Virus record (IMG/VR): IMGVR_UViG_3300040806_001989
Location: 1 to 23,788 of that record
Strand: one strand, 5' to 3'
DNA length: 23,788 nt
DNA from: a virus
Part shown: positions 1 to 23,788 of the stretch, one piece after another
Numbering within the stretch: the stretch's first letter is position 1
Layout of the letters: the number at the start of each line of letters is the position of its first letter
Made by a program: the position numbers and the translations under genes
The notes under the pieces: model-generated
Seen by the model: only the letters and a program-made list of their open reading frames with translations
What the model was told of the DNA's origin: nothing
Databases searched by the model: none

Positions 1-116
1 AGATCTAGATTGTGACCTAAAACCAATGTTAGTGATTCTGTGTCAAAGTTTACTGCTTGAGTATTGTTACCAATACTCATAAAGTTCTTCGCACTTACAT
101 TTTTTATAGTAAGCAT
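1..116 (-). CDS. 46: gp46-like recombination endonuclease subunit (SbcC/Rad50 type), N-terminus only
   Basis: Only the first 38 codons lie in the window; the gene continues past the left edge. The translation begins MLTIKNV, then NFMSIGNN, and reaches VNFDTESLTLVLGHNLDL. This is the beta-strand pattern that precedes the Walker A loop in T4 gp46 and the SbcC/Rad50 ATPases; the Walker A itself would lie just outside. Its ATG overlaps the stop of the gp47 gene by one base (TAATG), so the two are probably translationally coupled. In the family, gp46 is the ATPase partner of the gp47 nuclease, and together they resect DNA ends for recombination-dependent replication. Assignment rests on this N-terminal pattern plus the gp47 neighbour; the ATPase core cannot be seen. 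Confidence 0.85.
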   Translation of the reverse strand, partial: MLTIKNVSAKNFMSIGNNTQAVNFDTESLTLVLGHNLD

Positions 117-1132: not shown

Positions 1133-1138
1133 ATAAGA

Positions 1139-2005
1139 TTACTCTTGTGGTGAAGTTTCTAGTTCGGTCTGTGCTTCTTCTCTAGCGGCCTTTATTTCGT
1201 TTTCGTACTGAATCTGTCTACCATAACTTGGTAAGTGTCCGCTTTCAATAAGAATGTCATCACGTATTGATTGATTTCTTTTTTCTAAATTTAGAACTCT
1301 TGTAAAACTGTTATTCACTGTTGCAGTATAATAAGCAAATGGGTTATCTGATTTTGCTTCATTGAACTGCAATCCAACCTGAGCAAGTTGTACTAATGCT
1401 TGTCCACGCATTTCATCAACATAAGTGTAACCTCTCCAGTTACCTCTTTGACTGTAACGTTCAACAAGTTTCATAAACATTCTGCCAAGTTCATTTGTAA
1501 TCTGCCCATGTTCACAATTAAACTGACCGTTACTTAAACTACCTTCCCAATGACTTCTAGCAACTTCTCTAGGATTGATACCATTACTATCAAGTATATA
1601 ATGCTTGAATGGTGGGAAGTTTACTTTTGCTTTTGTGTCAGCAAGAGTTTTAGTAGTTTTCTTTCTTCCAGGTTCATCAGGAATATGCTCATATGTCATT
1701 ACCCTAAACACTAATTCATCTACAGGAATAGTGTCAGGATCAACTGCAAAGTCCTTTTGTTTTGGCTTTTTCTCCCAGTCTCCTTTTGCTACTGCGGCTT
1801 GATAAGCAGTTGATTGCATTTTAGAAACACGGTTTAATTGTGCCTGTTTAATTGTTCCTTTGTTGATTTTTTTAACATCATCAACAATGATGTCTACATT
1901 TAAGTATCTGTCATCTTGAATGTAGCAATAAGTCATCTTACTTTTATGTATTTCTTTTAGTAGATCTTTATTGTTTAAATAATTCTGTTTCTTAGCCTGT
2001 ACCAT
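1139..2005 (-). CDS. 55: gp55-like sigma factor for late transcription, with large N-terminal insertion
   Basis: A 288-aa protein. The C-terminal part, about residues 168-250, matches the T4/cyanophage gp55 pattern: a helix with GRMFMKL (174-180), a YTYVDEMRGQAL segment (193-204), and the diagnostic NPFAYYT (221-227) followed by a basic helix ending in LEKRNQ. This resembles sigma region 2. The first 20 residues (NYLNNKDLL) also resemble gp55 N-termini. Between them lie about 140 residues with no recognised domain, making the protein roughly 100 residues longer than T4 gp55 (185 aa). In the family, gp55 replaces the host sigma factor and directs RNA polymerase to TATAAATA-type late promoters. 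The start is fixed by AGGAG at 2011-2015, five bases before the ATG. A near-consensus host promoter lies upstream, fitting a gene needed before late transcription. It is the first gene of the 55-47-46 operon. Confidence 0.88.
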   Translation of the reverse strand: MVQAKKQNYLNNKDLLKEIHKSKMTYCYIQDDRYLNVDIIVDDVKKINKGTIKQAQLNRVSKMQSTAYQAAVAKGDWEKKPKQKDFAVDPDTIPVDELVFRVMTYEHIPDEPGRKKTTKTLADTKAKVNFPPFKHYILDSNGINPREVARSHWEGSLSNGQFNCEHGQITNELGRMFMKLVERYSQRGNWRGYTYVDEMRGQALVQLAQVGLQFNEAKSDNPFAYYTATVNNSFTRVLNLEKRNQSIRDDILIESGHLPSYGRQIQYENEIKAAREEAQTELETSPQE

Positions 2006-2010
2006 GTAAT

Positions 2011-2120: not shown

Positions 2121-2852
2121 ATGGCAGGCGAAACAGAATTTAATCAAGAGACGCAAACACCGGACAATCCGTTTGACTCGTTGATAAGCAGAACAGACTC
2201 TACTACGTTTAAAGACGTAGATTGGAGGGCAAGAATACGGCCAAAACGTGGCGGTGAGAAGTTTGCCTATGGATTAGTGGATTCAAAAGGCGAAGAACAA
2301 AAAGACAGCATACTTAAACCTTTACAAGATAGAGGTGGTATAGTCTATCCGTTTACACCAGATATATTTTTGCAAGCCTCAGTAGATTATAACGAAGCAC
2401 AACAACACGGTTCAAACTATCCGTTTTATACATTTATAAGTTCTAGACCAACTACACTACCTATCACAGGTGTATTTACAGCAAACACAATAGAAGAAGG
2501 ACAATATATGTTAGCAGTATTTCATTTCTTAAGAAGTGTAACTAAAGCATATTACGGTGATGCGGCTGTAACAGGTGGATACTACGGAACACCACCTCCA
2601 GTATTATTATTTGAATACCTAGGAGAATTTGGATTTAACAAATTGCCAGTAATTATTAGAAACTACAACTTCCAATTACCAGCAGATGTTGATTATGTTC
2701 CAGTAAAATTTAAAGGCACAACTACCATGATGCCAACCGAAACAAGTGTTATGATTGAATTAGCACCACAGTACACATACAGAAAAACAAGAAAAAGGTT
2801 TGATCTTAATGCATTTACAAGCGGCAAGCAGTACAATCAAGGATTTATTTAA
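2121..2852 (+). CDS. 48: gp48-like baseplate tail-tube cap protein
   Basis: A 243-aa protein resembling the gp48 group of marine T4-like phages. The clearest conserved part is the central AVFHFLRSVTKAYYGD (about residues 134-149), then GTPPPVLLFEYLGEF and a hydrophobic stretch ending in PADVDYVPVKF. The C-terminus has the family-like LAPQYTYRK (215-223) and ends QGFI. In T4, gp48 sits on the baseplate hub and, with gp54, nucleates polymerisation of the tail tube. It is the first gene of a late operon, has a strong AGGAG and a late promoter directly upstream, and its TAA overlaps the gp53 ATG by one base (TAATG). A gp54-like role is the main alternative, since the two proteins are related in function and position. 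Confidence 0.75.
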   Translation: MAGETEFNQETQTPDNPFDSLISRTDSTTFKDVDWRARIRPKRGGEKFAYGLVDSKGEEQKDSILKPLQDRGGIVYPFTPDIFLQASVDYNEAQQHGSNYPFYTFISSRPTTLPITGVFTANTIEEGQYMLAVFHFLRSVTKAYYGDAAVTGGYYGTPPPVLLFEYLGEFGFNKLPVIIRNYNFQLPADVDYVPVKFKGTTTMMPTETSVMIELAPQYTYRKTRKRFDLNAFTSGKQYNQGFI

Positions 2853-3148
2853 TGGCAAGTTTTCATGACAATCACAGTTTTTTGAAAAAAGCAGACGTAA
2901 ACAAGTTCTATCTGGGGATGAATAATCTACCTAAGATTCCAAAAAGTACTGCTGATCGACTCTATGCAATAGAATCTCGATATGAAAATAGACCGGATTT
3001 ATTAGCACATGAATTATATGGAACTGTAAAGTTGTGGTGGGTTTTTGCACTAAGAAACCCAGATGTAATCATCGACCCGTTGACAGATTTTGCATCCGGT
3101 ACAAAAATTTATATTCCTCCAAGAGAAACTATTGATAGAGTATTGTAA
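2852..3148 (+). CDS. 53: gp53-like baseplate wedge protein
   Basis: A 98-aa protein matching the conserved half of T4 gp53. It contains SRYENRPDLLAHELYG, then KLWWVFALRNPDVIIDPLTDF and GTKIYIPPRE near the end. The WWVFALRNP block followed by a short TKIYIPP strand resembles the LysM-like fold seen in wedge and tail-hub proteins. It is shorter than T4 gp53 (196 aa); the missing part is mainly N-terminal, as in other marine relatives. In the family it joins gp6, gp7, gp8, gp10 and gp25 in the baseplate wedge and is needed for hub-wedge assembly. It is coupled by TAATG overlaps to both neighbours. Confidence 0.9.
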   Translation: MASFHDNHSFLKKADVNKFYLGMNNLPKIPKSTADRLYAIESRYENRPDLLAHELYGTVKLWWVFALRNPDVIIDPLTDFASGTKIYIPPRETIDRVL

Positions 3149-5535
3149 TGACAGATAAAAATCCTAATCAATCTCAAGTAGAAAAAGAAGATAGATATCT
3201 TGGCAAAGTACAAGGTAATATTCTTGATGCTTATCAAAATTCTACTTACACATTAAAACTTTATATGATTCCCGACCTCACATCAGACGGGGGTGGATAT
3301 CTCAAAAAAGCAAAATCAGCCGAACCTCAAAATACAGTCATCATTGCACAGACTAGTGTAACAGGTGTACAAATTGATGACTTATCAATTGACATTAAAA
3401 AAGGAGCCAGTGGTGCTTTTGCCACATCGGCACAGTTTACACTAATACAACCTGGTGCCGCAGATTTATTAGACCAAATACAGGCCGCTAAAAAACATTT
3501 AGGAATTCAAGCAGGTGTTTTTGCACCAGTACCTTTATTTTTAGAAATAAATTTTAAAGGTTATAAAGAAGATTTAGATGATTTAGAAGGTGGCGGCGAA
3601 ATAGAAACACAAATAGCAGGACCATACATTTACGAATGTCATATTGCCACTGTTGATGTTTCTATTACAGATGCTGGTAGTACATATGACTTTTTTGTAA
3701 CTATTGGTGATGACGAATCATGGACTGACAAATATTATACATTACCTGCAGACACATCATTTACAGGTGATACCATTACAGAATGTTTTGACAGTTTAAC
3801 AGAAGCAATCGAAAACTATACAAAGAATAATAAAAAAGAAGAACTTGTCAGTGATGAAATTGTTTTTGATTTAAGTCAACTAAAAGAAGTGCTAGGTGAT
3901 GACAGTATAAAATATAGTAACTACAAAGATGCCGAACAATTAAACAGATTGATGAATGCAGAATCGTATGGCATAAAATCACGTGAAGAATTTGAAAAAA
4001 TGTTAGAAGACTCGCCAGAAAGTTTAGATGGTGGTATAGAAGCCACCGGTGGCTTTTGGAGAAGAGATAGAATACAAGTACCAGAAGGAACAAACTTTCA
4101 CAGAATATTATCAACTATGCTAGTAATGAACGAAGCATTCTTAGATAAGTCATCTAGGAAAAAAGGAGGATTAGACAATCCTGTTATTGACGAGCATGGC
4201 TTAGATTTAAATCAAACATTTACATATTGGTATAAAATGACTGCTGATATGGAATATATAGAAAATGGTTATGATGCAAGACGTAATGCTTATGCTCGAA
4301 GAGTTACATACAAGCCTATAATATATAAGACCGCTGATCAAGACAATAATTTATCGCAGAGCGAATTCAAACTGTCTAAAGAAAACGTTACAAAACGTGT
4401 GAACGAATTACTAATTAAAAAAGCATATCATTATTTGTACACTGGACTCAACGACCAAATACTTAGTGCAGATATATCATATAAAGCAGGTCAAGTATTA
4501 TTGGCCGCACCAGGTGGAGGTTATCTGGGTGATGCTTCATCAAGTCCAAATGCACCTGGTAGTCCTTCAACAGATGGAGATAATGAAGGGAAAGAACGAC
4601 AAGCAAAAACAGATGCGGCTGTAGAAGATCCTACACAAATTGCTAAAAAATTAAAAGACGATGATCAATACTTTGATAAAATTGCTGATAGATTGAATCT
4701 AACAGAAGACGAGAAAAAGAATTTAAGAAAAGACAAAGAACAAAGAAATAGATTAGCACAAACTATAAACTATTTACAAAGTGGTGGACAGAATCCTACA
4801 GATTATTATCAAACAGCGGCTTCCGATAACAATGCAGATACTACACCTACAAATGATTTTGATGGTACATATAAACCAGAACCAAGTGGATTCATTTATA
4901 GTGCTGAACTAATGCACGATGCAGGTGGTAGCCCAACTGTCATTGGCGAACTAACAGATCAACAAGTCACTAACTCACTAGCAAATGCTCTCAAAGGCGA
5001 TGAAGCAGATGTGGGTCCTTTGCCAGGTATGGTGTATGACCACAATGTTATTGTGAATAATTCAAACACCAGTGATGGCGGTGCTAAAGGCACATTGTTT
5101 GGATACATGTATCAAAACGTAAACGATGCAAGTATACTGGTAGACCTTGGGTTAAAAGTTAGAGGAGATCCTTGGTATTTAGGGCCACCAGAAGTAGAAC
5201 CAAAGTCACCAAAGTTAGTTAAAAAAGCAAATGAGGAAGAAGAAAATTCCACAGATCAATACATAGTATACAATAGAAGTGATAATTACTTTTTATTCAC
5301 AATGCAAACACCACGTGTTAGAGATCCGAATATTGATGATGAAGACGAAAATAGCGGGTACATGAGTCAACAGGGTACAGCATTCTTTTTAAGTGGGGTG
5401 TACCAAATATTTGGTATAACCGCAAACTTTAGTGGTGGTATGTTTGAAATAGAAACTAATGCTAAAAAACAAACAGCATTGAGTTTAGCAAAACTTGATA
5501 TGACACAGAATTCATATGACGGAGTAGATGACTAA
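3148..5535 (+). CDS. Large tail/baseplate structural protein, probable hub component
   Basis: A 795-aa protein without enzyme motifs. Residues about 30-200 are beta-rich (KLYMIPD, VTGVQIDDLSID, PLFLEINFKGY at 127-137, then YIYECHIATVDVSI), a pattern seen in phage hub proteins upstream of the spike gene. Residues about 225-300 are acidic and helical. From about 350 to 450 another conserved-looking part ends in AYHYLYTGLNDQI. A Gly/Ser/Pro linker follows (450-480), then a charged helical stretch (about 495-545) and a beta-rich C-terminus with DNYFLFTMQTPRVRDPN. It lies between gp53 and gp5, coupled to both by TAATG, the place where a partner of the spike would be expected. A gp27-like hub role is an inference from position and shape; homologues in marine T4-likes are usually annotated only as structural proteins. 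Confidence 0.7.
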   Translation: MTDKNPNQSQVEKEDRYLGKVQGNILDAYQNSTYTLKLYMIPDLTSDGGGYLKKAKSAEPQNTVIIAQTSVTGVQIDDLSIDIKKGASGAFATSAQFTLIQPGAADLLDQIQAAKKHLGIQAGVFAPVPLFLEINFKGYKEDLDDLEGGGEIETQIAGPYIYECHIATVDVSITDAGSTYDFFVTIGDDESWTDKYYTLPADTSFTGDTITECFDSLTEAIENYTKNNKKEELVSDEIVFDLSQLKEVLGDDSIKYSNYKDAEQLNRLMNAESYGIKSREEFEKMLEDSPESLDGGIEATGGFWRRDRIQVPEGTNFHRILSTMLVMNEAFLDKSSRKKGGLDNPVIDEHGLDLNQTFTYWYKMTADMEYIENGYDARRNAYARRVTYKPIIYKTADQDNNLSQSEFKLSKENVTKRVNELLIKKAYHYLYTGLNDQILSADISYKAGQVLLAAPGGGYLGDASSSPNAPGSPSTDGDNEGKERQAKTDAAVEDPTQIAKKLKDDDQYFDKIADRLNLTEDEKKNLRKDKEQRNRLAQTINYLQSGGQNPTDYYQTAASDNNADTTPTNDFDGTYKPEPSGFIYSAELMHDAGGSPTVIGELTDQQVTNSLANALKGDEADVGPLPGMVYDHNVIVNNSNTSDGGAKGTLFGYMYQNVNDASILVDLGLKVRGDPWYLGPPEVEPKSPKLVKKANEEEENSTDQYIVYNRSDNYFLFTMQTPRVRDPNIDDEDENSGYMSQQGTAFFLSGVYQIFGITANFSGGMFEIETNAKKQTALSLAKLDMTQNSYDGVDD

Positions 5536-7073
5536 TGGCTTATAAGGCAGATAGATTTAGAGTAACCAATAAAGGACTTAGAGACAAGTTGCGTGGACAT
5601 GCTGACTTGGACTTTGGTGTGTATATTGGTGAAATTATTGTAAGGCCAAAAGATGCTACACATAGTGGTAGGCTTACAGTTTATATTCCAATGCTAAGTA
5701 AAGACAGAGATGATCCTAACGGATACTACAATGCATATTGGAGTAGTCCGTTTGCTGGTAGCACACACTCAGCAAAAATAGGACAAGATAAACAAGTATA
5801 CGGTTTTCATGATACACAAAAAACATATGGTATGTGGATGGTACCACCTGATCCAGGTAACTTTGTGTTAGTATGTTTTGCCGATGGTAAAAGAAAATTT
5901 CCAGTTGTAATAAGTTGTCTATATCCTGATCAACTACAACATATGGTTCCGGGTAATGCGGCCGGTCCTGCATACGGTACTGACATAAAAGTTCCGGTTG
6001 CAGAAAAAAACAGAAATGAAGAATCTGTTAGTCATAGCATAAATGCAAAAAGACCTATAAACCCTTATGTAACAAAAGCAATTTTAGAACAAGGTTTAAT
6101 ACATGATTCAGTTAGAGGAATCAGTGTATCTTCTGCAAGGCGCGAATCACCAAGTCAAGTATTTGGAATACTCACTCCTGGTCCAGAAGTAGAAAATAAA
6201 AGAACTAGTAAAAAAGATAATACTCACAGAGAACCAGGACATAGCATTGTTCTAGATGATGGTGATATAGAAGGTGAAAGCAAGAATGTTAGAATTAGAA
6301 CTGGAGGAGGACATCAAATATTACTTGATGATACATCTGGTGACATTTATATTATAAACAAAAAAGGAACTGCTTGGATAGAGATGTCAGATGCAGGAGA
6401 TATAAATGTCTATGCTGAAAGAGATTTTAATATGAGAGCAAAAGGCAATGTGAATATTAGATCTGATAAAAATTTAAATTTAGAAGCAAATTCTTCAATA
6501 TATGTACAAGCCGGAGAATATGAAAGTGCAGACCAAATTTTAGACGTTGACGGTAATCCAAAAGGAAACTTTAGTCTCAACATAAGCAATCAAACAAACT
6601 GGTTAAACAAAAAAGACTTTGTATTACAAACAGATAGTACTGGTGCAATTCATCTTACATCTCAAACAAAAATACATCAAACTGCAATCGGTGACATTGA
6701 AACAACATCAGATGGTAAACTTAAAGTTTATGGTTCTAGTGGAGTTGATATTAAATCTGGATCAACTATAAACTCACAAGCAAGTGGTAGAAATAATGTA
6801 CTTGGTTCTAGTGTACATTTAAATGATGGTGGTACTGCGGAACAGGCACAAAAAGGCAAAGTTGCAACACCACATGTTGTAAATCAATTCGTGGATCAAC
6901 CAATCGAAAAACCTATTTGGGAATATCCAGAAAATCCAGACGAGGTAGATGAGAATACCGATCCAATGCCTACACAAGGTAAAAGGGATGGTGTTAGAGA
7001 CACAATAAAAAGTTTATTGCGTTTGATTACTACTAGAGAACCTTGGGAATATCGTCCCAAAGACGACAACTAA
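5535..7073 (+). CDS. 5: gp5-like baseplate central spike protein without lysozyme domain
   Basis: A 512-aa protein. Residues about 27-135 form an OB-fold-like barrel typical of gp5/VgrG/gpV spikes (GVYIGEIIVRPKD, then GRLTVYIP, and MVPPDPGNFVLVCFADG). Residues about 240-440 are a repetitive beta-helix: GGGHQILLDDTSGDIYI, AWIEMSDAGDINVYAER, and short alternating strands around MRAKGNVNIRSDKNLNLEA. T4 gp5 carries a lysozyme domain between these parts; here the corresponding stretch (about 136-240) is a low-complexity polar linker with no glycosidase motif. The protein should form the trimeric needle under the tail tube and pierce the membrane. The C-terminus (about 450-512) is Pro/Glu/Arg-rich and may hold an accessory tip. 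The TAA overlaps head to head with the stop of a minus-strand gene, so no terminator separates them. Confidence 0.85.
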   Translation: MAYKADRFRVTNKGLRDKLRGHADLDFGVYIGEIIVRPKDATHSGRLTVYIPMLSKDRDDPNGYYNAYWSSPFAGSTHSAKIGQDKQVYGFHDTQKTYGMWMVPPDPGNFVLVCFADGKRKFPVVISCLYPDQLQHMVPGNAAGPAYGTDIKVPVAEKNRNEESVSHSINAKRPINPYVTKAILEQGLIHDSVRGISVSSARRESPSQVFGILTPGPEVENKRTSKKDNTHREPGHSIVLDDGDIEGESKNVRIRTGGGHQILLDDTSGDIYIINKKGTAWIEMSDAGDINVYAERDFNMRAKGNVNIRSDKNLNLEANSSIYVQAGEYESADQILDVDGNPKGNFSLNISNQTNWLNKKDFVLQTDSTGAIHLTSQTKIHQTAIGDIETTSDGKLKVYGSSGVDIKSGSTINSQASGRNNVLGSSVHLNDGGTAEQAQKGKVATPHVVNQFVDQPIEKPIWEYPENPDEVDENTDPMPTQGKRDGVRDTIKSLLRLITTREPWEYRPKDDN

Positions 7074-7264
7074 GCAATTAGTGTAGTGGTTTTTTCTGCT
7101 AATCTCTTATAAGCATTATATTTTTGCTCTTCGAGATCTTTGATATTATGTTGCAATAGTTTAACAAGTGTTTCAAGCTCAACAATTTGTTTCTTTTGCT
7201 CACATACAATTATTCTGAGTTCTTCCTCTAGTGTATTATTTAAAGTTACGTTTTGCTTACTCAT
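7070..7264 (-). CDS. Small coiled-coil protein of unknown function
   Basis: A 64-aa protein that I do not recognise. Residues about 10-55 are a continuous charged helix with heptad-like hydrophobic spacing (LEEELRIIV, IVELETLVKLL, IKDLEEQ), so a coiled coil is likely. There is no signal peptide or membrane segment. The ATG overlaps the last 8 bases of the hydrolase gene (ATGAGTAA), implying translational coupling. At its end the TAG at 7070-7072 overlaps the gp5 TAA on the other strand. The tight overlap and unbroken codons support a real gene; function is unknown. Confidence 0.65.
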   Translation of the reverse strand: MSKQNVTLNNTLEEELRIIVCEQKKQIVELETLVKLLQHNIKDLEEQKYNAYKRLAEKTTTLIA

Positions 7265-7886
7265 TAAATATCTTTTCTTTTAAAATGTTTACTACATCGT
7301 AACTTAGTAAAACTTCGTTATGACTTAATGCAAATTTTATATCAGTTACATTTTTAAAATTATCAGGATAAGATTCTTGTGTTAGAACCGTTAGTAAACC
7401 ATCATTTTTTTCTTGACCAAATCCTGCTAATACATTACCACCGCCAGATGAACCTGTGGTAATAATATTAGTTATCTTAAAATTATTGTTTAAGTTAGAT
7501 AATGATTGAATTATGTCACTATCTGGTCTTGTGTTTTGAAACAGTTTACTTTGCCTAAATACTAGGTTTAACCACTTAGCAGTTCTGCTACCTTTCCAAG
7601 GAGCACTTAAAGAAATAAAATTTTCTACATTTGCATCGATGCGACTAGCAAGATACATACCTAGTAGACAACCATAACTATGGCATACAAGGTGTACTTG
7701 TTCACCTGCTAAGTTGTCTACATAGTACTTGTGGAATCTATTTACAATATCATCAAAGTCTTCATGAACATCATACTCTAAACAATGAGAACTATGCTCA
7801 GGTAGAAACAAATTAAAATATTCATAACTCAGAGCAGATTGCCCAGTGCCATGTAAAAAAATTATATTCTTAATTTCTGAAGGCAT
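7257..7886 (-). CDS. Lipase-like alpha/beta hydrolase
   Basis: A 209-aa protein from the preferred ATG at 7886. It has the full signature of a serine alpha/beta hydrolase: oxyanion-hole HGTG after the first strand (IIFLHGTG, residues 12-15), nucleophile elbow CHSYG (Ser70), a lipase-like NDGLL with the probable acid Asp162, and SHNEVL with the catalytic His189. LSAPWKGS after the nucleophile is like triacylglycerol lipases. Substrate is unknown; an ester or lipid is likely from the family. No signal peptide or transmembrane helix is seen, so it is probably cytoplasmic. An upstream in-frame ATG at 7943 would add 19 residues but overlap the previous gene by 74 bases; 7886 overlaps it by 17 and starts directly at the fold. 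It is the middle gene of a three-gene minus-strand operon and is not part of the T4 baseplate set. Confidence 0.82.
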   Translation of the reverse strand: MPSEIKNIIFLHGTGQSALSYEYFNLFLPEHSSHCLEYDVHEDFDDIVNRFHKYYVDNLAGEQVHLVCHSYGCLLGMYLASRIDANVENFISLSAPWKGSRTAKWLNLVFRQSKLFQNTRPDSDIIQSLSNLNNNFKITNIITTGSSGGGNVLAGFGQEKNDGLLTVLTQESYPDNFKNVTDIKFALSHNEVLLSYDVVNILKEKIFNE

Positions 7887-8145
7887 TCTTGATAAGCATC
7901 TCCATGTCTTTAAACTCTTGTGGTATCTTGTCTTTTTGACCAACTAAGTTGACCATTTCAAAAAGAACATACTTTTTAGTAAAGGAATCGTAGATTCCTA
8001 TAGACTCAAAACGGTTCTTCTTTTTAGATACCATTTTGTGAAAACGGTTACCATAACCTGTGGATTGATCCGAGCCGGCTAACTTTCTGTTGGCTTTCTC
8101 GGCATTTTTGCAAATATTGTCAAAATATTCTATAACGTTACGCAT
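7870..8145 (-). CDS. 91-aa protein of unknown function
   Basis: I do not recognise this protein. It starts MRNVIEYFDNI, is basic in the middle (MVSKKKNRFES) and has two beta-like segments (SIGIYDS, KYVLFEMVNLV) before a terminal helix. No signal peptide or catalytic motif is visible. The frame stays open up to 8292, but the true start is taken as the ATG at 8145: AGGA at 8154-8151 sits five bases upstream, and the extra 49 codons would run through the promoter, the palindrome and the opposing late box. It is the first gene of the minus-strand island and overlaps the hydrolase start by 17 bases, suggesting a shared transcript and perhaps a shared role. Confidence 0.72.
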   Translation of the reverse strand: MRNVIEYFDNICKNAEKANRKLAGSDQSTGYGNRFHKMVSKKKNRFESIGIYDSFTKKYVLFEMVNLVGQKDKIPQEFKDMEMLIKNAFRN

Positions 8146-8265: not shown

Positions 8266-8272
8266 GGTTCTT

Positions 8273-8280
8273 GATAAATA
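8273..8280 (+). promoter_or_regulatory. T4-type late promoter for the gp25-gp6 operon
   Basis: GATAAATA, identical to the late box at 2097-2104. Only five bases separate it from the gp25 ATG at 8286, so with T4 late start geometry the transcript would begin at or beside that ATG. No Shine-Dalgarno sequence lies between. Confidence 0.75.
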
Positions 8281-8285
8281 TTGAT

Positions 8286-13091: not shown

Positions 13092-16000
13092 ATGGCTGAT
13101 AAAAAGTATAAAGACTTACCAACGAATATTCAGACAACTACTGTTAAAAACTTTTTCGAAAGTACAGTAGAACAGTTATTCAGCAAAGCAAATGTTGAAA
13201 ACTTGTCTGCATATATTGGAAGAAAAGAGTTCGACGACTATAACCCAGATACAGATGTATATGTTCCTCAGAGCACACCTAACAGAGAAAAATATAGTTT
13301 AGAACCAGTAGTCAATAGTGTAGATCAACTAACAGGATTAAGTACTAATTTAATGTTCTACGATGACTTTTTAAATGTTTTAAAAAGTTATGGTGTCGAT
13401 ACACAAAACCAAAACAATTTATTCAGTTCAAACTTTTACAGTTTGTTACCTCCCATTGATGAAGATAAATTTGTAAATTTCCAAGAATATTTTTGGAGTC
13501 CAGAAGGACCACAAGCAATAGTAGTTAGTGGTACAGCAAGTCAACCTATAAACATTTTAAAAGATATTATTGGTAAAAAAACATTTACTGATCCATCAGG
13601 ATATACATTTAAAAATGGTGCAGTGGTAGAATTTGCAGGTGACTATGTGATACCTCAAACATACAAAGACAGTAGGTACATTATAGAAGGTGTTGGCAAC
13701 AGTATTATTTTACATAATAAGGAACAAAATTTTTCAGCAAGTTTTTCAACTCCTTCTTTTGCCCCTTGGGATCAAGAAATAATAACAGGTGAATCTAACT
13801 TAATTTTAACCGACATACCTCAAGGTGCAGTATCAGAAAGTATTATTGCAACACATGGTTATCTTGATACTAGTACAGGTTTATATTACTACTTTGATGC
13901 AGAAGGTGAGCAGTCCACAGTACCAGTCAATTCGTTACAAGATATAGACTTAAACGGTAATCCTTTTTGGGAAGGCTACGTTTCAGAAGCAGATGGCTTC
14001 TTAGTTTATATAAATGATGGAATATATGGATTTGACAATGAACCATGGGACGGTGGTAACACTCAGGAAACACCAGATTACATTCTTATGCAACGTGGTG
14101 CACAAGATAAAAATATTTGGAGTAGAATAAACTTTTGGCATCATAAAAACAATTTCATAGATTCGGGTTCTGAATTACCAGGTAAAGAATTTAGAGCAAA
14201 AAGACCTATTTTAGAATTTGATAGAGATATAGAAGTATACAATTTTGGTACCTTAGGTCTAGACTTTAATGCTGATTTATCAGCCGCAGGTTATACTAAG
14301 GCTGAAATAGAAGGTAGACCAATATCAGCACCAATTGACAGTCAAGGCATCAAAGAAGAAAATATAGTTTTAATACCAGATGATACCGAAGATAATGCAA
14401 AATATGTTTATATTGTAAAAGCATCAACAACTAAAACAGTTGTAGGTAGTGTATCAAATAGTTCAACCTTTATTGTTGACGACATATCAGACGTTTATCT
14501 ATATTCAACTATTACAGGCAATGGCATTAGTACTACTGTGCAAGTTGAAGATATTGATACTAGCTCTAAAATGATTACAACTAGTGCAAATGTAACACTT
14601 ACAGATCAGCAAAGCATTACATTTGGTGATAGAGTTATACTTAAAAGAAAACCAGCAGACAATAACCCTGTAGGTGCAGTAGACGGCGATAGTAATTTTA
14701 TACCGTTTGTGCCTGAAGTTGGTAATAGTATTTCTATTCTATTTGGTTCTCAAAATCAAGGTACAGAATATTTTTGGGATGGAAAAAAATGGATATTAGG
14801 TCAAAAGAAAACTAGAGTAAACAGTCCTATATTGTTTAAAGCATATGACGGTAATAGAAATATTGTTGATGATGATTTAGTATACCCTGAATCATCTTTT
14901 AAAGGAACAAAATTATTTTCTTATAAAGATGCAACATCAAATACACAGAATGATAGTGTTTTAGGATTTCCTCTACAGTATAAAAACTTTAATAACTTCA
15001 GCGAAATTGTTTTTAACAACAATTTAAGTTCTGACGTAATTAGTTATGTACCTTTTGGTGGCACAACAAACTCTTACATAAATGGATACTTGTATTACAA
15101 GCAAAGATTAAGCAACGGTAACATAGAATATAGAACTATGTGGAGAGGACAAAATACTCCTTTCGAACAAGTAATCGAAGATAGATATCAAATATCTCAA
15201 GATCTTGTAGATGCAAAAACTGTAATTTATAATATATCAGCAACACCCACAGATAGCAATGATATAAGAGTTTATATCAACGGTAAACGTACTAAGGCGT
15301 TTACATATAATAGTGTATTGACTGCTATTCAGTTTGCAAGTTTTGGGTTAAAATTAAATGATATAATTGATATTAAAACAAAAACTAGCACCGGGCATAT
15401 ATTAGGTGAAAACCGAACTGGTAGATATGAAATACCACTAAGTTGGGACTCAAACACTGATAAAGTTGATATCTTTGAAATCAGCGAACCACAATACCTT
15501 GAACATTTTAAAAATTTAATAAACAATCAAGAGCACATTGATGGTGAGCCTCTTGGAAGTAATAACTTTAGTAATCTAACAAAAGAAATAAAATATGCAG
15601 ACAAAATTGTACAGACAGACGATGACTTGCAAACTGCGGCTTTCCTAGTTAGCAATGATAACTTTAATATTATTGATGCCATAAGATATAATGCAGAAGA
15701 GTATATCAAGTATAAAAACAGATTAAGAAAAGAGATTAAACGTTACATTGATGGCAACGATATAATTGGTTTAACAAACAGCAATATATTAGAACTTGCA
15801 ATACAAAATGTTATAGCATACAATCCAGGCAAACTAGTATTTGATTACAGTTACATGTTAGCAATTGGTGATAGATACGACGAAGAAACTATTGTAATCA
15901 ATAACGTAAATCAAAAAGAATATGTCTTATCTAGATATAGCGATTTAACTAAAGTAGAAAATGTAGTTTACGTTTACGAAACAGACAGCGAAGGTAAAGA

Positions 16001-19000
16001 TCAAATGCTTTTGATTGATACTGACTATAGCATAAACAGTGATAACAGCATTGTTACTTTAACATTTACTGATAATTATACTTTATCGTTAGGTAGTACA
16101 ATAAAAGCAAGATTCTTTAATACAAACAGAGAAAGTGCTCAATGTCCGCCCACACCAAGTGCAATGGGTCTGTATCCTGTAACAAAACCAAAAATATTTA
16201 AGGATACTACTTTCAATGAGCCAATAAATGTAGTACTTGGACATGATGGTAGTAAGCATGTAGCAGTAAACGACAAAGAAGATGAAATATTATTAGAGTT
16301 TGAAAGAAGAGTTTACAATACAATATTACAAGTTTATAGAGATAAGGAATCACATCCTGACTTAAATGTATTTGACATTAGACCAGGTAGATTCAGAACA
16401 ACAGGATTTTCAAGAAATGACTTTTATAATATTTTAAGAGAAAGTTTTAATAAATTTGTTACAAGAAACGAAGTAGACTTTGTTACAAATGAATATTATA
16501 AAGAAGATGATTTTTGGACATGGAATTACAATAGCAATACTGTAAAACCTGCTTATTGGAGAGGTATTTTTGAAAGTTGTTACGATACAGAAAAACCTCA
16601 TACACACCCATGGGAAATGCTAGGCTTCACTAAAAAACCAACATGGTGGGAAGAACAGTATGGTACAGACTATGGTTCAACTAACACTGACTTATGGAAA
16701 GATTTAGAGGAAGGTATTATTAGACAAGGCACTAGAGCCAATATTGAAAATGATAGATATAAAACTAGAAAAAATCCTTTTAGAAGAATTGGATTAAAAT
16801 ATGAAATACCTGTAGATGCACAAGGCAACCTAATACCACCTGCTAATATTATTAGTACTACATCAACAACAAAAAGTATTTCGTGGACACAGAGTGTTAC
16901 AGGAACACCTAGTGCAAATGCAAATACATTTATTGCTACTGACGGTTTATCAATAAGTGAATATCATAATTCAGGTAACACATTTATAAATGTCACAACA
17001 AATAATATTCCAGGACACGACACTGGAACATTCCCGTCTACAAATAATACAAATGAAATTGTAGACTCAGAATTCAATTACAGTTTCCAATTTGCTACAG
17101 GTATAGCAACAGGAAATTTAGCATATTATAATGATTATGCAAATGCAACATCAACAAGCAATACTGCAATAGGTATAGCAGTAAACGGTGCAATGATTAC
17201 AAACAGTAATACAGGTATTATCTTTGAAGATAGTAGTAACTGGCACTACAATGCAATGTTTAGAAATGATGTTGACAGAGATACTGCCGGCGGTTCACCA
17301 GACAGTAATAATATTTACGGATATGTACAACCTAGTCCTCAAACAGTTGGATTGACTAGTTGGGCAACTGACAGCCATTCACCAATTGTTGGATGGGCAT
17401 TTGACGGATTACCAATTTATGGTCCATACGGCTACACTGATGGTGCAAATGCCAGTAGTGCTATTAAAAGAATAGAAAGCAGTTACGAACTAAGAAGTGA
17501 TGTAAGATCTGATATAGCCAGTGGTGCAACAGGTTTACCAACAGGTGAATTTATTGAAGATTATGCGTATAACCCAGGCAGTGGTGATCTTGATCAGTTT
17601 AATGGACGTTTTGGTGTTACACCAGAATATCCTGCAGGAACATACTATTATGTTGCAACAATAGATGCAAACAGCGAACCAGCATATCCTTATACAGTTG
17701 GTGGCAAGTTTATAGATACACCAGACTTATCAAACAATTTAATTGGTACACAAACTCTAAATACAAACGGTACCCTATCATATTCGTTAGACAACTCAGA
17801 GTCAACAGTATATAGTGCTAACTCAACATTAGCAAGTAGCAATTGGAAATTTAGTGACGGTGCTCCAGTAGAGAATGCATGGAAAATTTCTGAATATTAT
17901 CCATTTGCAATTATAGAATCACTATTTCTTACCAAGCCAGGTAAGTTTGCCAGTGTGTTTGCAGAACCGGAAAAACTTATTCGAGTTTCTGCAAACACCA
18001 ACCAATTAGTTGATAAAAATACAAACAAAAGATATAAAGTCAAAAATGCTATTGTACACGGCGACATAAAGGCAGACGGTAAAACATTATGTACTAACAC
18101 TGGTTATACACAATTCATAGACTCTTATTTGAGATTCCAAGGTCTTAATAATACATCTATATTTGCAAAACCATTTAGATCTGTCAACGGTAAACTAGGA
18201 CATAAGTTTGCTGGATTTATTGATAAAGATACAATGACTGTATTCAGTGATACATATAGTACAACAGGTAATAGTTCAAGTTTAATATTACCTCAAGAAG
18301 ATTTACAAATTGATATCCATGAAGGTCCTGTATCAACAACAAACAATTATACAGGTGTGCTTATAGAAAAAGTTTCAAATAATGGATATAAAGTTTCTGG
18401 ATACAGCAGTTTAAAAAGATACTTTGATATTATTCCTAGTGATAAACAAGGCAGAAAAACAGAAGTATCAGTAGGCGGCGAACCTGCAAACTTTAGTAAT
18501 TACGATACAACTAAACAATTCAACGAAGGTAACATAGTTAAATCAGGTTACAATTATTATCGAGCAGTAGCATTTGCTTCTGCAGGTACGGCAGTGACCG
18601 ATACAACAGTATGGCAAAGAATGAGTGCATTGCCAAACGTAGGCGGAGCAGAAGCAACATTTTATCTAGATGGAACCGGTACTGTTGAAAGAGTAGAATA
18701 CGGTACTGTTTATTATAATGTAAATGACTTATTTGATTTCTTAACCAGTTTAGGCAGATATCAAAAATCAATAGGATTTGATTTTGGTGAATTTAGCACA
18801 GAAATAAATGATATAAACGATTGGTTATATTCAGGTAAGCAGTTCTTATTCTGGAGCATTGGTAAATGGTCAACCGGTAATACATTAAATCTTAGTCCTA
18901 TGGCAAACAAGGTATCGTTTGCTACTACTACAGGTAGAATAAATCGAATTCAAGAATCTTATAAAGGACAATTTAGTATATTAGATCAAGAAGGAAAAAT

Positions 19001-22000
19001 GGTTTCTCCTCGGGATTGTGAAATTGTTAGAGAAAGTAATTCTATTACGATCGCAACAATTGATAGAGAAGTACAAATTTATGGTATTACATTACATACT
19101 AATGAATTAGAACATAGTATGCTTGTAAACAACAAATCGCAATTTGGCGATACAATTTATGATCCAGTATTTAATCAAAGACAAAAACGTTTAAAAATTA
19201 AAGGCAAGAGAACTGCTAATTGGAACGGAACATTATCAAGTGAAGGTTTCATAATCACTGACAATGGATTAAAACCAAACTTTGATACACTTGCAAGTGA
19301 CATTGGCAGATATAACGAAATAGGTTATATGCCAGTAGAAAAACAAGTTTATGATGCAAGTAGAAGACAATATGGTTATCAAGAAAGAAAATATCTTAGA
19401 GAATTTGAATTAGTAGATGATAACCAGTTTGATTTCTATCAAGGTATGATCAGAAACAAAGGTACAAAAGACAGTTTAGAAATCTTGTTAAACAGTGACA
19501 AAGTGTTTATTCCTGGTAACGTAAGTATATTTGATCAATGGGCATTAAAAATTGGTAATTTTGGTGACACTGATAATAGACAGCGACTTGATGTTAAAAT
19601 TGATGAAGACGAGATTAAAAGTGAAAAAACACTGGTACAAATTGTATACCCAGAAAACATAGTTAGTATTGTTGATGATGTAGAAGTATTAAGTAGAAAT
19701 ACAAAATTCTATACAAAACCAATACTTGAAATAGAACCACCACCTGCAGAGATTCCAGGAAGTTTCACATACGGTGGAGGCACTACTGCTGAAGCCACAG
19801 TGAATTTATCCACTGATGGAACAATTAGCAACGTCACAGTTACAGAAAAAGGTTATGGCTATACTATAAACCCATCTGTAACAGTAGTTGCGGCACAGTT
19901 GCTTACAGCAAACCTTACAACATATTTTAGTAAGCCTTATGCAATATCAAGTGATTATGTATCTGGTTCGGGTACATTTGCAAATGCCTTAACCGGCATC
20001 CATATCACAGACCATTTTGCACCTAGCGGTAATGCAAATACATTTATTGATTTATCAGGTGTTACAACACTTACTGGTGTTGCAAATGCAATCAACAGTA
20101 CTGCAAACACTAATGCTAATATTGTAGCAAGAGCAGTTGAAATTGCAACATCTACATCAACCAATTATTTGCTAGAAATACAAGGTAATGATTTCCAACT
20201 TTCTGGACAGGGCAATAGTGCTATTGTTGATGATATTACAAACAAGTTCTTATTAGAAGAAAGAAGATATCAACCAAGGCAACGATATAGTTTTGAAACT
20301 GCTAACAGTACTGCACAAAGTGATATTATAGCAACAGTTGACGGCAACATAACTTCAGCAGGCAATGATTGGGTGTTCGATGAAGGTAGTAGAACAACTA
20401 TAAGACCTACCAGTAGAATTACAGGTGGTAATGTATCATTTAATTTTGTACCAACATCAGTCAGTGACGGAGTATCAAATACTAATTTAATTGATATTGA
20501 TAACAGAACAGTTATAAACGGAATATATCCGCATTTAGATGTTTTCATTGACGGACAAAAATTAGACGATTCGTTAGAAACTAGTAGTGTTGCAGGTTAT
20601 ATTGTAAGCGAGTCAGGTAGTAATAATATTATTACATTCTATGATGTGTCAAAATTACCAGGTGGTGAATTAAATGAGAATTCAGTAATTGAAGTTGTCG
20701 AGTATGGTACTCTAGATTTTGAGGATACATATCAAGGTGATTTACCCGGTAGTGTTCTAAATATTAAAGTCACAGCAAATGACGCCTTAGCGGCCAAACT
20801 AAAGCAAATAAGAACATTTGAAATTACACCAGATGTTAAAACAGATTCAACAATTTTAATAGACGTTGACGATGGTACTAGAATGATACATAGACCAACT
20901 GATATGGCAACTAACGACTTATGGCCAACAACGTCTAGTGTAAGCCACTTAGGTATAGTAGACAGTAAGTATACACCATTACCTAATGCAGGATATATTT
21001 CAAAATACAATGTAAATTATCAAGCAATGGACTTGCAAAACTTTGAACAATTATTCGATAGAGCAACTAGAAAAGCAAGTAAAATTCCACAAGCAAATGA
21101 TTTAATACATTTCGCTATCGATGAGCATAGCGATTTTAATGCTTATCAACTAGTTGATACTAATTGTAATGTTGCATACGTGGAAGGCGACTTAAACAGT
21201 CAATCTATATCACTTTTTACAAACAAAAGTTTAATGCAATTTACAGATGGAAACAGAGAAAATACTGCAAACAACATAAACAAATACTATGATAATGTTG
21301 TTGCATTTAAACGTGATAAAAATATTTATAATGCATACTACGATAAAATGAGTTATGCTGACGGTGAAAAAATCTTTGACGATACAATAATGGATCTAAC
21401 TACACCGGTTGGATTATTCCTTAACGAAGAGCAAGTTGTTAAAAACTCTTTTGATGTTACAGATATCACTTACACAAGACCTATGGTGCTTGGTATAGAA
21501 AAAATAGAACCTAATGTTAGTGGTAATGTTTTAAATATTCAGCCACATGCTTTATTCAATGAAGGTATTGTTGCAAACGCAAACATAGTAGGTAATAACA
21601 TTGTTGAAATTTCAATAGTAACAACACAGGAAACTGTAGATGGCACAGTTTCATTTAGTAATCAATTTTCTGGACTAACAAATGGTTCATATGTAAACTT
21701 TGTTGATACTTCAGGTGGCAACTTAAACGGAAATAATTACGAGATAAGCAACCTAAATGTTACTGCATTTACAACCAACGGAACACAGTCAAGTACAGCA
21801 AATACTAGTGTACCAGTTATTTCCGAAGTATCGGGTACTGTAACTAATAGTAAAACAGTAACATTACTTGAGGCTAACACAGACATTAGAAATGGAATGT
21901 CAGTACTTGGAACTGGTGTAGAAAATAATACCAAGGTCAATCAAATATCTGGTACAACAATTACACTTTCACAAAATGCAAACATATCAAGTGGTGCTAA

Positions 22001-23788
22001 TATTACATTTGTAAGTCAAAGTGTAATATACACAACAACAGAATCTTCAACAACAACATTTACAATTGAAGATGCCACAGTAAGTAGTAATGTATCAACT
22101 GCAAATTTAACAATAGGTAAAACAGACGGTTTAATAGTTACAACTGATTTTGATACAACAACACTAACACGTGGTGATGATGTTAAAATACAAAATGCTG
22201 GACTGTTCGAAGGTGTACATAGAATCAAAGATATCACAGTAAATGGTGTTGCTAACACTATTTCTATACCAGGCGATTATGTTGCACCTCTAAGTATTAC
22301 AAGCACTTTTACAGGTGTAGATACTGCTAACATTCAATTAGCAACAGCAAACAGTTCAATTACAGATGGTATGTTGGTAACTGGTGGTAATGTTGCGGCA
22401 AATTGTAAAGTACTATACATAGATGCAGGAGGAAATATTATATTATCTTCTAATGCTGATAGTAGTGCAAATTCTTCAATTACATTCACAGAAGATAGAT
22501 TTGGTAATGCAACACTTGTAGACAATTATGTAACAGTAACATTTACAGAAGATCATGATTTAACAATAGATTCTGCAGGACAAGATACAATACTGGAGCA
22601 TGTAGTAAACATTGGTTATGCAGAGCCTGGATACTATAACTGGGCCTGGAGAGCAAAAGGTGTTCCTACTGCAAATACATTATTAGTACAAGGATACGGA
22701 TACGATCATCCAGTACCTGTAACATATACAACAACCTTTACTGGAACAGGCAACTCTATTGTGATTGCTAGTGAAAACGATTTTGTACAAAAATTTGTTT
22801 CGGTGTCTGGTGGAGATGTTGCTTCAGGAACTAAAGTAGTTTCTGTAGATGGCACAACTGTAATATTAGACGGCAATGCTGACAGTAGTGCAAATAACAG
22901 TATAACATTTAGTGCTAATGCAGTCTCAGAAAAACAATATTTAGAATATGGTAATTCTGCACAACTCACAGTAGGCAACCCAGAGGGAAATGCGTACCTG
23001 TCCTCAACACATAAAGGTAAGATTTTCATAAATGGCATGCCGGTTGCAACTGCTTTCCCAATGTATTCATCACAACAGTATGTTGATGATATAAATTATC
23101 AATTACAAATTAAACAAGGTGCAGTAGCATTTTGTGGCTCTATACAAATTAGTATTCCTTTTATAACACCAGCACTAAAGGCGGCGGCAAGAGCCGCGGC
23201 AATGAATGCCGCTGGTACCGGATTACAAAATTTTGCTGGATTAGGTCAAGTACCTGCAGGAACAATAAATTCAAAACTGCAAGGTAAACAACATACATTA
23301 AGAAATAGTTATAACCATGCCGGATTAGCTCAAAGAGTACTAAATGGTGGCCAGCATAGTTTCATAGATGTAAATCCTGGTAACTCGGGTAATGTTACTA
23401 CTTCAGGACCATCCGCACCTGTTCCGGCATATACTCCACCAACAACAACACAACCAGCCGCACAAAGTACTCAAATACCTATTGCAACGCCCATAGGACC
23501 TAAACTTTCCGTAGCCGCTGGAACGTTAGATCAATCTCAAGAATCTAGATATAACAATGCGAGTGATCCTACATCTTCAAATATGGCCTACATTGATTAT
23601 ACTAACAGTCCGGATCCGAAGCGGCGAGCAATGGGCGGTGTTTGGATGGGTACATCAAGAATAACATACGGTTGGCATCCTAAGACTGGCGTAAGAGGTC
23701 TTTGGGAGTGGATTGGTGGAATGGGTTTCCACAACAGTTGGAAAGATCCTAATCGACTACCTCCACCTCCCGGATCGCCAACATTTGG
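13092..23788 (+). CDS. Giant virion structural protein in the gp7 position (VrlC-like), 3' end outside window
   Basis: One frame stays open from the ATG at 13092 to the window end: at least 3565 codons, no stop. The order 25-6-this matches 6-7 in T4, and marine T4-likes often carry a large VrlC-type structural protein here. Residues 1-400 have blocks seen in that group: VDQLTGLSTNLMFYDDFLN, LLPPIDEDKFVNFQEYFW, DKNIWSRINFW and RAKRPILEFDRDIEVYNFG. Residues about 1350-1540 are a YHYH-family domain (SHSPIVGWAFDGLPIYGPYG; NGRFGVTPEYPAGTYYY; AYPYTVGG). Around 2100-2160 is FYQGMIRNKGTKDSLEIL. A divergent repeat lies near 457-511 and three better copies between 2917 and 3273. The visible end is Ala-rich, then Pro/Thr/Gln-rich, then Trp/Gly-rich with PPPPGSP. 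No Shine-Dalgarno is seen; the ATG is five bases after the gp6 stop. Probably a baseplate or peripheral tail component; exact role unknown. Confidence 0.8.
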   Translation, partial: MADKKYKDLPTNIQTTTVKNFFESTVEQLFSKANVENLSAYIGRKEFDDYNPDTDVYVPQSTPNREKYSLEPVVNSVDQLTGLSTNLMFYDDFLNVLKSYGVDTQNQNNLFSSNFYSLLPPIDEDKFVNFQEYFWSPEGPQAIVVSGTASQPINILKDIIGKKTFTDPSGYTFKNGAVVEFAGDYVIPQTYKDSRYIIEGVGNSIILHNKEQNFSASFSTPSFAPWDQEIITGESNLILTDIPQGAVSESIIATHGYLDTSTGLYYYFDAEGEQSTVPVNSLQDIDLNGNPFWEGYVSEADGFLVYINDGIYGFDNEPWDGGNTQETPDYILMQRGAQDKNIWSRINFWHHKNNFIDSGSELPGKEFRAKRPILEFDRDIEVYNFGTLGLDFNADLSAAGYTKAEIEGRPISAPIDSQGIKEENIVLIPDDTEDNAKYVYIVKASTTKTVVGSVSNSSTFIVDDISDVYLYSTITGNGISTTVQVEDIDTSSKMITTSANVTLTDQQSITFGDRVILKRKPADNNPVGAVDGDSNFIPFVPEVGNSISILFGSQNQGTEYFWDGKKWILGQKKTRVNSPILFKAYDGNRNIVDDDLVYPESSFKGTKLFSYKDATSNTQNDSVLGFPLQYKNFNNFSEIVFNNNLSSDVISYVPFGGTTNSYINGYLYYKQRLSNGNIEYRTMWRGQNTPFEQVIEDRYQISQDLVDAKTVIYNISATPTDSNDIRVYINGKRTKAFTYNSVLTAIQFASFGLKLNDIIDIKTKTSTGHILGENRTGRYEIPLSWDSNTDKVDIFEISEPQYLEHFKNLINNQEHIDGEPLGSNNFSNLTKEIKYADKIVQTDDDLQTAAFLVSNDNFNIIDAIRYNAEEYIKYKNRLRKEIKRYIDGNDIIGLTNSNILELAIQNVIAYNPGKLVFDYSYMLAIGDRYDEETIVINNVNQKEYVLSRYSDLTKVENVVYVYETDSEGKDQMLLIDTDYSINSDNSIVTLTFTDNYTLSLGSTIKARFFNTNRESAQCPPTPSAMGLYPVTKPKIFKDTTFNEPINVVLGHDGSKHVAVNDKEDEILLEFERRVYNTILQVYRDKESHPDLNVFDIRPGRFRTTGFSRNDFYNILRESFNKFVTRNEVDFVTNEYYKEDDFWTWNYNSNTVKPAYWRGIFESCYDTEKPHTHPWEMLGFTKKPTWWEEQYGTDYGSTNTDLWKDLEEGIIRQGTRANIENDRYKTRKNPFRRIGLKYEIPVDAQGNLIPPANIISTTSTTKSISWTQSVTGTPSANANTFIATDGLSISEYHNSGNTFINVTTNNIPGHDTGTFPSTNNTNEIVDSEFNYSFQFATGIATGNLAYYNDYANATSTSNTAIGIAVNGAMITNSNTGIIFEDSSNWHYNAMFRNDVDRDTAGGSPDSNNIYGYVQPSPQTVGLTSWATDSHSPIVGWAFDGLPIYGPYGYTDGANASSAIKRIESSYELRSDVRSDIASGATGLPTGEFIEDYAYNPGSGDLDQFNGRFGVTPEYPAGTYYYVATIDANSEPAYPYTVGGKFIDTPDLSNNLIGTQTLNTNGTLSYSLDNSESTVYSANSTLASSNWKFSDGAPVENAWKISEYYPFAIIESLFLTKPGKFASVFAEPEKLIRVSANTNQLVDKNTNKRYKVKNAIVHGDIKADGKTLCTNTGYTQFIDSYLRFQGLNNTSIFAKPFRSVNGKLGHKFAGFIDKDTMTVFSDTYSTTGNSSSLILPQEDLQIDIHEGPVSTTNNYTGVLIEKVSNNGYKVSGYSSLKRYFDIIPSDKQGRKTEVSVGGEPANFSNYDTTKQFNEGNIVKSGYNYYRAVAFASAGTAVTDTTVWQRMSALPNVGGAEATFYLDGTGTVERVEYGTVYYNVNDLFDFLTSLGRYQKSIGFDFGEFSTEINDINDWLYSGKQFLFWSIGKWSTGNTLNLSPMANKVSFATTTGRINRIQESYKGQFSILDQEGKMVSPRDCEIVRESNSITIATIDREVQIYGITLHTNELEHSMLVNNKSQFGDTIYDPVFNQRQKRLKIKGKRTANWNGTLSSEGFIITDNGLKPNFDTLASDIGRYNEIGYMPVEKQVYDASRRQYGYQERKYLREFELVDDNQFDFYQGMIRNKGTKDSLEILLNSDKVFIPGNVSIFDQWALKIGNFGDTDNRQRLDVKIDEDEIKSEKTLVQIVYPENIVSIVDDVEVLSRNTKFYTKPILEIEPPPAEIPGSFTYGGGTTAEATVNLSTDGTISNVTVTEKGYGYTINPSVTVVAAQLLTANLTTYFSKPYAISSDYVSGSGTFANALTGIHITDHFAPSGNANTFIDLSGVTTLTGVANAINSTANTNANIVARAVEIATSTSTNYLLEIQGNDFQLSGQGNSAIVDDITNKFLLEERRYQPRQRYSFETANSTAQSDIIATVDGNITSAGNDWVFDEGSRTTIRPTSRITGGNVSFNFVPTSVSDGVSNTNLIDIDNRTVINGIYPHLDVFIDGQKLDDSLETSSVAGYIVSESGSNNIITFYDVSKLPGGELNENSVIEVVEYGTLDFEDTYQGDLPGSVLNIKVTANDALAAKLKQIRTFEITPDVKTDSTILIDVDDGTRMIHRPTDMATNDLWPTTSSVSHLGIVDSKYTPLPNAGYISKYNVNYQAMDLQNFEQLFDRATRKASKIPQANDLIHFAIDEHSDFNAYQLVDTNCNVAYVEGDLNSQSISLFTNKSLMQFTDGNRENTANNINKYYDNVVAFKRDKNIYNAYYDKMSYADGEKIFDDTIMDLTTPVGLFLNEEQVVKNSFDVTDITYTRPMVLGIEKIEPNVSGNVLNIQPHALFNEGIVANANIVGNNIVEISIVTTQETVDGTVSFSNQFSGLTNGSYVNFVDTSGGNLNGNNYEISNLNVTAFTTNGTQSSTANTSVPVISEVSGTVTNSKTVTLLEANTDIRNGMSVLGTGVENNTKVNQISGTTITLSQNANISSGANITFVSQSVIYTTTESSTTTFTIEDATVSSNVSTANLTIGKTDGLIVTTDFDTTTLTRGDDVKIQNAGLFEGVHRIKDITVNGVANTISIPGDYVAPLSITSTFTGVDTANIQLATANSSITDGMLVTGGNVAANCKVLYIDAGGNIILSSNADSSANSSITFTEDRFGNATLVDNYVTVTFTEDHDLTIDSAGQDTILEHVVNIGYAEPGYYNWAWRAKGVPTANTLLVQGYGYDHPVPVTYTTTFTGTGNSIVIASENDFVQKFVSVSGGDVASGTKVVSVDGTTVILDGNADSSANNSITFSANAVSEKQYLEYGNSAQLTVGNPEGNAYLSSTHKGKIFINGMPVATAFPMYSSQQYVDDINYQLQIKQGAVAFCGSIQISIPFITPALKAAARAAAMNAAGTGLQNFAGLGQVPAGTINSKLQGKQHTLRNSYNHAGLAQRVLNGGQHSFIDVNPGNSGNVTTSGPSAPVPAYTPPTTTQPAAQSTQIPIATPIGPKLSVAAGTLDQSQESRYNNASDPTSSNMAYIDYTNSPDPKRRAMGGVWMGTSRITYGWHPKTGVRGLWEWIGGMGFHNSWKDPNRLPPPPGSPTF
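14460..14624 (+). repeat. Divergent copy of the internal ITF module in the giant protein
   Basis: About 55 codons with the same ending pattern as the three C-terminal copies: GNGIS-TTVQVEDID-KMITTSANV and a final QQSITF. Similarity is at protein level only and weaker than among the other three. Confidence 0.45.
17140..17715 (+). other. YHYH-family domain within the giant structural protein
   Basis: Encodes residues about 1350-1540. The conserved half is clear: HSPIVGWAFDGLPIYGP near residue 1429, NGRFGVTPEYPAGTYYY from 1504, and AYPYTVGG. The upstream position where the family has the eponymous YHYH instead reads IYGYVQP, following GGSPDSNN. The domain is widespread in bacteria and marine phage structural proteins; its activity is not established. 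Confidence 0.75.
21840..22010 (+). repeat. Internal module copy 1 in the giant protein
   Basis: 57 codons. Pattern: an opening beta strand (SKTVTLLEAN), IRNGMSVLGTGV, NTKVNQISGTTITLSQNA, then a Ser/Ala stretch and ITF. Shared core with copies 2 and 3 is G(M)xVxGxxV...KVxxIxGxxIxL, N-A-(D/N), and terminal ITF. Confidence 0.7.
22305..22487 (+). repeat. Internal module copy 2 in the giant protein
   Basis: 61 codons beginning FTG after a Thr. It contains SITDGMLVTGGNVAANCKV, GGNIILSSNADSSANSSITF. The ending NADSSANxSITF is nearly identical to copy 3, and the DNA there is also similar. Confidence 0.75.
22731..22910 (+). repeat. Internal module copy 3 in the giant protein
   Basis: 60 codons beginning TTFTG. 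It contains KFVSVSGGDVASGTKVVSVD and LDGNADSSANNSITF. Together with copies 1 and 2 it forms a spaced array of small beta modules separated by about 240-300 bases of unrelated sequence. Confidence 0.75.

Follow-up and report, generated by a model that had tools for sequence, protein, structure and literature searches.

Gene content of the window

The window analyzed in this study is the whole virus record IMGVR_UViG_3300040806_001989, a virus contig of 23,788 bases with a GC content of 33.9%. Its gene content is that of a T4-like baseplate module. Two ORFs on the minus strand, both free of GCWGC (W = A or T), encode an SbcD-like (T4 gp47-type) nuclease subunit (positions 116..1132; phrog_100, E=3e-57) and a late-transcription sigma factor (1139..2005; phrog_12791, E=4e-96). 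On the plus strand these are followed by a gene for a virion structural protein (2121..2852; phrog_12050, E=9e-48), a baseplate wedge subunit gene which is gp53-like by position (2852..3148; phrog_7145, E=3e-25), a second virion structural protein gene (3148..5535; phrog_11190, E=9e-27) and a baseplate hub/tail lysozyme-like gene (5535..7073; phrog_13211, E=3e-40). A minus-strand ORF of 228 aa (7257..7943) gave no PHROG family.

Two further baseplate wedge subunit genes are located on the plus strand, one gp25-like (8271..8657; phrog_261, E=4e-12) and one gp6-like (8659..13086; phrog_10646, score 1029). The remaining plus-strand sequence (13092..23788) is an open frame representing the 5' part of a giant structural-type ORF (3,565 codons, 10.7 kb) and is still open at the contig end. 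Its counterpart in a relative with a 250,519-bp contig (here named G001, tiles L081-L093) is a protein of 6,236 aa, for which tblastn matches were found in the window lineage and in PA5oct.

The gp6-like gene served as query for relatives and as tree marker. Named relatives of its protein are the jumbo myoviruses PA5oct and kin, Salicola phage SCTP-2, Vibrio phage 2.275.O and others, with identities of 31-43% (60 of 100 records listed). As these relatives are jumbo myoviruses, the window is a piece of a jumbo phage genome as well, with PA5oct as distant kin.

Absence of GCWGC from the window

Direct counting confirmed the statement of the earlier note that GCAGC and GCTGC are absent from the window (0 and 0, respectively). 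The number of sites expected by chance had been put at roughly ten there, which is too low: base composition gave 13, a maximal-order Markov model 17.2 and codon shuffling 23.3±2.3. With 17.2 sites expected, the Poisson chance of finding none is about 3e-8. In the codon shuffles synonymous codons were exchanged between positions that encode the same residue, so that proteins and codon usage were kept. This was the strictest null applied and covers the genes of the window, which were called with a simple ORF script. Among 200 shuffles the minimum was 18 sites, and a near-zero expectation is therefore excluded.

The related words with a G or C centre (GCSGC) were present, with 21 copies of GCGGC and 9 of GCCGC. 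These 30 copies compare with 6.4±2.3 expected from the codon shuffles, which means that GCSGC is enriched. The avoidance is thus specific to the W centre, as had been claimed before, and an enzyme reading GCNGC is not the driver.

GCWGC in related phages

The record ends at 23,788 bases, and the rest of the window's own genome was judged via its relatives. A contig of 72,152 bp is nearest to the window (98% identical over 23.4 kb). It contained a single GCWGC compared to 62 expected from the Markov model or 73.4±4.6 from codon shuffles. In G001 no site was found where the Markov model predicted 196. Codon shuffles of this contig (n=100) gave 226.8±7.2 with a minimum of 205. The absence first noted in the window is thus not confined to it.

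A first scan with the gp6-like protein, restricted to the best 80 of 363 relatives, revealed 69 of 80 related loci without GCWGC. Together with the window these represent 70 site-free sequences totalling 1.29 Mb, in which 1,164 copies of GCWGC would be expected. No 5-mer class other than GCAGC approached zero in them; the next ratio of observed to expected was 0.42 (classes with more than 20 expected). For a second scan the query was taken from a site-bearing relative and the best 80 of 337 relatives were used. Loci L187, L188, L191, L195 and L198 were left out of the combined set, being on the same contigs as earlier loci. Of the resulting 123 loci 77 lacked GCWGC (1.40 Mb, 1,274 expected), a proportion that is no unbiased frequency because the set includes near copies and was built in part with a query from a site-bearing phage. 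The ratio of observed to expected sites in the remainder was below 0.3 in 6 loci, 0.3-0.75 in 23 and at least 0.75 in 17.

A similar picture was obtained with a UvsW-like helicase as query (best 80 of at least 523 relatives). Here 50 of 80 loci were without GCWGC, with 641 sites expected, and the others had ratios below 0.3 (5 loci), between 0.3 and 0.75 (13 loci) or of at least 0.75 (12 loci). The gp6 and UvsW sets overlap in some contigs, e.g. L051/L261 and L159/L248, and overlap also exists within the set of 163 contigs described below. Normal counts were found in 50-kb stretches of three named relatives, namely PA5oct (75 vs 60 expected), Vibrio phage 2.275.O (73 vs 64) and SCTP-2 (17 vs 20).

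Several other genes of G001 are worth recording. The contig encodes a TonB-dependent-receptor-like protein with a Plug domain (G001:52682-54712, reverse; L083:12682-14712), relatives of which are encoded next to the UvsW-like helicase in many of the site-free loci; many site-bearing loci lack them. Curli-type genes (G001:88694-93079; L085), comprising members of the CsgG and CsgF families and a weak match to curlin repeats, are shared with the contigs G003 and G004. An alternative oxidase (PF01786, E=1e-67) is located at G001:2434-3027 (reverse; L081) and is 79% identical in G005; plastocyanin/azurin-like and cytochrome c families are also present on G001. Furthermore, a member of the eukaryotic phosphomannomutase family (PF03332, E=2e-26; G001:156900-157595, L088:16900-17595) was found, as well as in G004 and G005.

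Selection on DNA and lability of the trait

Site-free and site-bearing contigs were compared at those sites over which reciprocal best protein pairs with more than 50% identity have an identical peptide. The site-free contig had lost the site in all 184 of 184 cases (15/15, 31/31, 34/34, 18/18, 29/29, 19/19, 25/25 and 13/13), the eight pairs sharing contigs and therefore not being independent. Between site-bearing contigs 25 of 37 such sites were kept (20/28, 3/3 and 2/6). Selection acts on the DNA and not on the protein. Sites were frequently lost by replacement of the central base with G or C, in agreement with the enrichment of GCSGC.

A tree of the gp6-like protein (126 rows) contained at least 9 state changes between site-free and other rows. 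It was built with FastTree only, the short locus L153 was also left out, and long branches make some placements unsure. The site-bearing loci L034, L036 and L037 are placed inside the otherwise mostly site-free clade of the window, and the site-free loci L170-L172 inside a clade mostly with sites. Clades with intermediate counts of GCWGC were present as well, e.g. L176-L186. The GCWGC-free trait is therefore labile on this tree.

Other avoided words

In 163 contigs of at least 12 kb, every 4-mer and 5-mer class for which 12 or more copies were expected was screened for near-absence (no more than 3% of expectation). GCAGC/GCTGC was near-absent in 88 of 141 contigs and AGCT in 23 of 163. The other words were CATG (3 of 163), ACGT (2), GTAC (2), GCGC (1 of 69) and CTAG (1). 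All of them are palindromes or, in the case of GCWGC, a degenerate palindrome. The near-absent words therefore have the make-up of Type II recognition sites. Avoidance for a private reason would leave the form of any other avoided word arbitrary, and only palindromes were found.

AGCT represents a second, more variable avoided site. It occurred twice in G001, where 479 copies were expected, but L009-L017 and their kin still had 0.58 of the expected number. Since the pressure on GCWGC is nearly constant and the others come and go, the pattern is in line with a host group in which one restriction system is widespread and several others vary.

Absence or near-absence of the rarer palindromes was seen in single lineages: GTAC in L190 and L259, CATG in L318-L320, ACGT in L176 and L185, CTAG in L275 and GCGC in L259. 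The D-arm of a tRNA-Ala carries AGTT with a matching GAAC in G001 (G001:58-133; L081) and AGCT with GAGC in G003 (G003:5985-6060; L231). The paired change in G001 removes an AGCT site in a lineage that avoids AGCT.

Phage-borne candidates and rival explanations

Base composition or codon usage alone could be thought to explain the rarity of the word, as a genome of 34% GC contains few GC-rich 5-mers and 9 of 11 site-bearing loci of the first gp6 scan had a GC content of at least 0.38. The codon-preserving shuffles, with minima of 18 sites for the window and 205 for the 250-kb contig, refute this reading. Moreover, GCSGC is enriched, site-free loci reach a GC content of 0.38-0.39 (L032, L305 and L306) and the stretch of PA5oct, at a GC content of 0.33, contains 75 sites against 60 expected. 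We regard the chance that composition is the cause as close to nil. A more serious rival is a nuclease encoded by the phages themselves which cuts GCWGC, e.g. in host DNA; the phage would then be immune through its purged genome and would need no methylation. A strict and clade-wide zero is in line with this proposal, as is a GIY-YIG protein of 118 aa which is conserved and encoded within a syntenic block of G001 (G001:48331-48687, reverse; L083:8331-8687). Relatives of this protein were found in 31 contigs, 30 of them site-free, and the block is missing from the site-bearing relative G035. The exception among the carriers, L149, has a partial relative and 3 sites against 4.9 expected. The UvsW-like gene is a neighbour of the GIY-YIG gene and allowed a wider test. 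In the 66 UvsW loci in which the interval is fully seen, the GIY-YIG gene was present in 3 site-free loci but lacking in 41 site-free and 22 site-bearing ones. As a general cause the gene was rejected, since 41 of 44 site-free loci with a fully seen interval are without it. The other near-absent words, being palindromic and variable between lineages, also argue against a phage nuclease and rather suggest several outside enzymes. Overall, we consider a phage-encoded cause very unlikely.

A third proposal keeps the host as the agent and changes the type of its defence: an asymmetric Type IIS enzyme (GCAGC), a backbone-modification system or a methyl-directed enzyme. GCWGC and GCAGC are the sites of TseI/ApeKI-type (palindromic) and BbvI-type (asymmetric) enzymes, respectively. 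Since GCAGC and GCTGC are one double-stranded site, counting cannot separate a TseI/ApeKI-type from a BbvI-type enzyme, and to this extent the counts are compatible with the proposal. Passages of PMC6329791 give GCWGC as the site of TseI. PMC6286503 names methyl-directed (Type IIM) enzymes that have GCWGC as their site, but such an enzyme needs prior methylation of the phage DNA, and the cytosine-5 methyltransferase family PF00145 was found in 0 of 30 phage contigs. The remaining near-absent words, moreover, are all palindromes, as for ordinary Type II enzymes. These variants of host defence are, in our view, very unlikely.

With regard to the GIY-YIG protein itself, its identity was 67-97% in 29 of the other 30 loci with a match, the last one being a 72% fragment. 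The surrounding block of MazG-like, kinase and phosphoribosyltransferase genes is conserved. Only a weak PDB match was obtained (E=0.004, UPF0213), and no match was found in named phages. A contrast of gene content between 6 site-free and 7 site-bearing long contigs, with genes called by the same ORF script as above, gave no cluster that was shared by every site-free contig and missing from every site-bearing one; the contigs contrasted were partial with mainly the structural module in common, G001 being the one near-complete genome. The HNH family PF01844 was found in 0 of 8 contigs.

Probable evasion of host restriction

In our opinion the absence of GCWGC very probably reflects evasion of a host restriction system directed against this site. 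Hosts of most of these jumbo phages would carry a Type II activity that cuts unmodified GCWGC. A phage genome with the site would be at risk of cutting upon infection, and sites would have been purged from the lineages, mostly through synonymous substitutions and often with W at the centre replaced by S. The phages apparently do not use cytosine-5 methylation of their own to protect GCWGC. The PF00145 result given above (most of the 30 contigs being partial) reveals no sign of self-protection, and no methyltransferase was among the families listed for 145 G001 proteins, with up to 25 families per list.

Evasion of a host enzyme had already been suggested in the earlier note as the simplest explanation. 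It is supported here as the best one by the palindromic nature of the near-absent words, the lability of the trait and the normal counts in three named relatives. The claim that selection acts genome-wide holds too, given that the 250-kb relative has no site and that all 184 same-peptide sites were removed. The agent would accordingly be a host enzyme that is widespread in the host lineage, and the hosts of site-bearing phage lineages would presumably be without it. Restriction systems usually vary between strains. So many lineages at exactly zero demand near-constant contact with the enzyme, which is much to ask. The single site in the contig nearest to the window also speaks against the explanation.

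In a scan of genome contigs one relative was found, located in a gammaproteobacterial MAG where mis-binning is possible. This more distant relative was free of GCWGC (0 vs 23 expected). Neither PF00145 nor PF01555 gave a match in the MAG; this speaks against a host enzyme, though the MAG may be incomplete or the phage contig placed in the wrong bin. In the family of the MAG (genome G051) PF00145 was present in 4 of 21 genomes. One of these methyltransferases is HhaI-like, another (L239) adjoins an HhaI-like nuclease, and a methyltransferase gene in L237 is located beside an MzaE-like protein; all are candidates only and are not counted as support. Transfer RNAs were found in 2 of 44 tiles and were of no use for host matching.

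Relation to known systems and implications

The loss of restriction sites is an adaptation of a known kind. What is notable here is its completeness, its breadth and the repeated changes of state. According to passages of PMC6532042, Staphylococcus phage K has lost all GATC sites, in avoidance of Sau3A. In our count GATC was missing from the first 40 kb of its genome (L321, 1-40000), where 81 copies were expected. GCWGC is absent from the same 40 kb too (0 vs 10 expected). As far as these passages go, phage K resembles the present phages in having a large lytic genome free of one Type II site. Host and enzyme are known for phage K, whereas here the enzyme is inferred, the word is GCWGC, the longest genome has 250 kb, and many lineages with at least 9 changes are involved.

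A survey of prokaryotic viruses includes GCWGC among its sites, with 66.3% of its genomes below expectation (PMC6286503, in part). The under-representation of Type II sites is shared with our phages. In the survey, however, the effect consists mostly of ratios below 1, whereas these jumbo phages have no site at all where tens to hundreds would be expected. Another link to GCWGC is M.AbaBS3I, a GCWGC methyltransferase of environmental Chloroflexi which is listed without a restriction system in passages of PMC6329791. It identifies GCWGC as a methylation target in uncultivated bacteria, and those passages make no link to these phages. A literature search, thin on subscription journals, returned no report of GCWGC avoidance in jumbo phages, and the word is missing from the available portions of the main text of PMC9516812 and PMC12570018.

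The missing word predicts a property of the hosts, namely that restriction at GCWGC is frequent enough among them for most sampled lineages to stay site-free. It would also offer a handle for matching uncultivated jumbo phages to their hosts by methylome. With its repeated changes and intermediate clades, this family may serve for measuring the strength and the decay of restriction selection.
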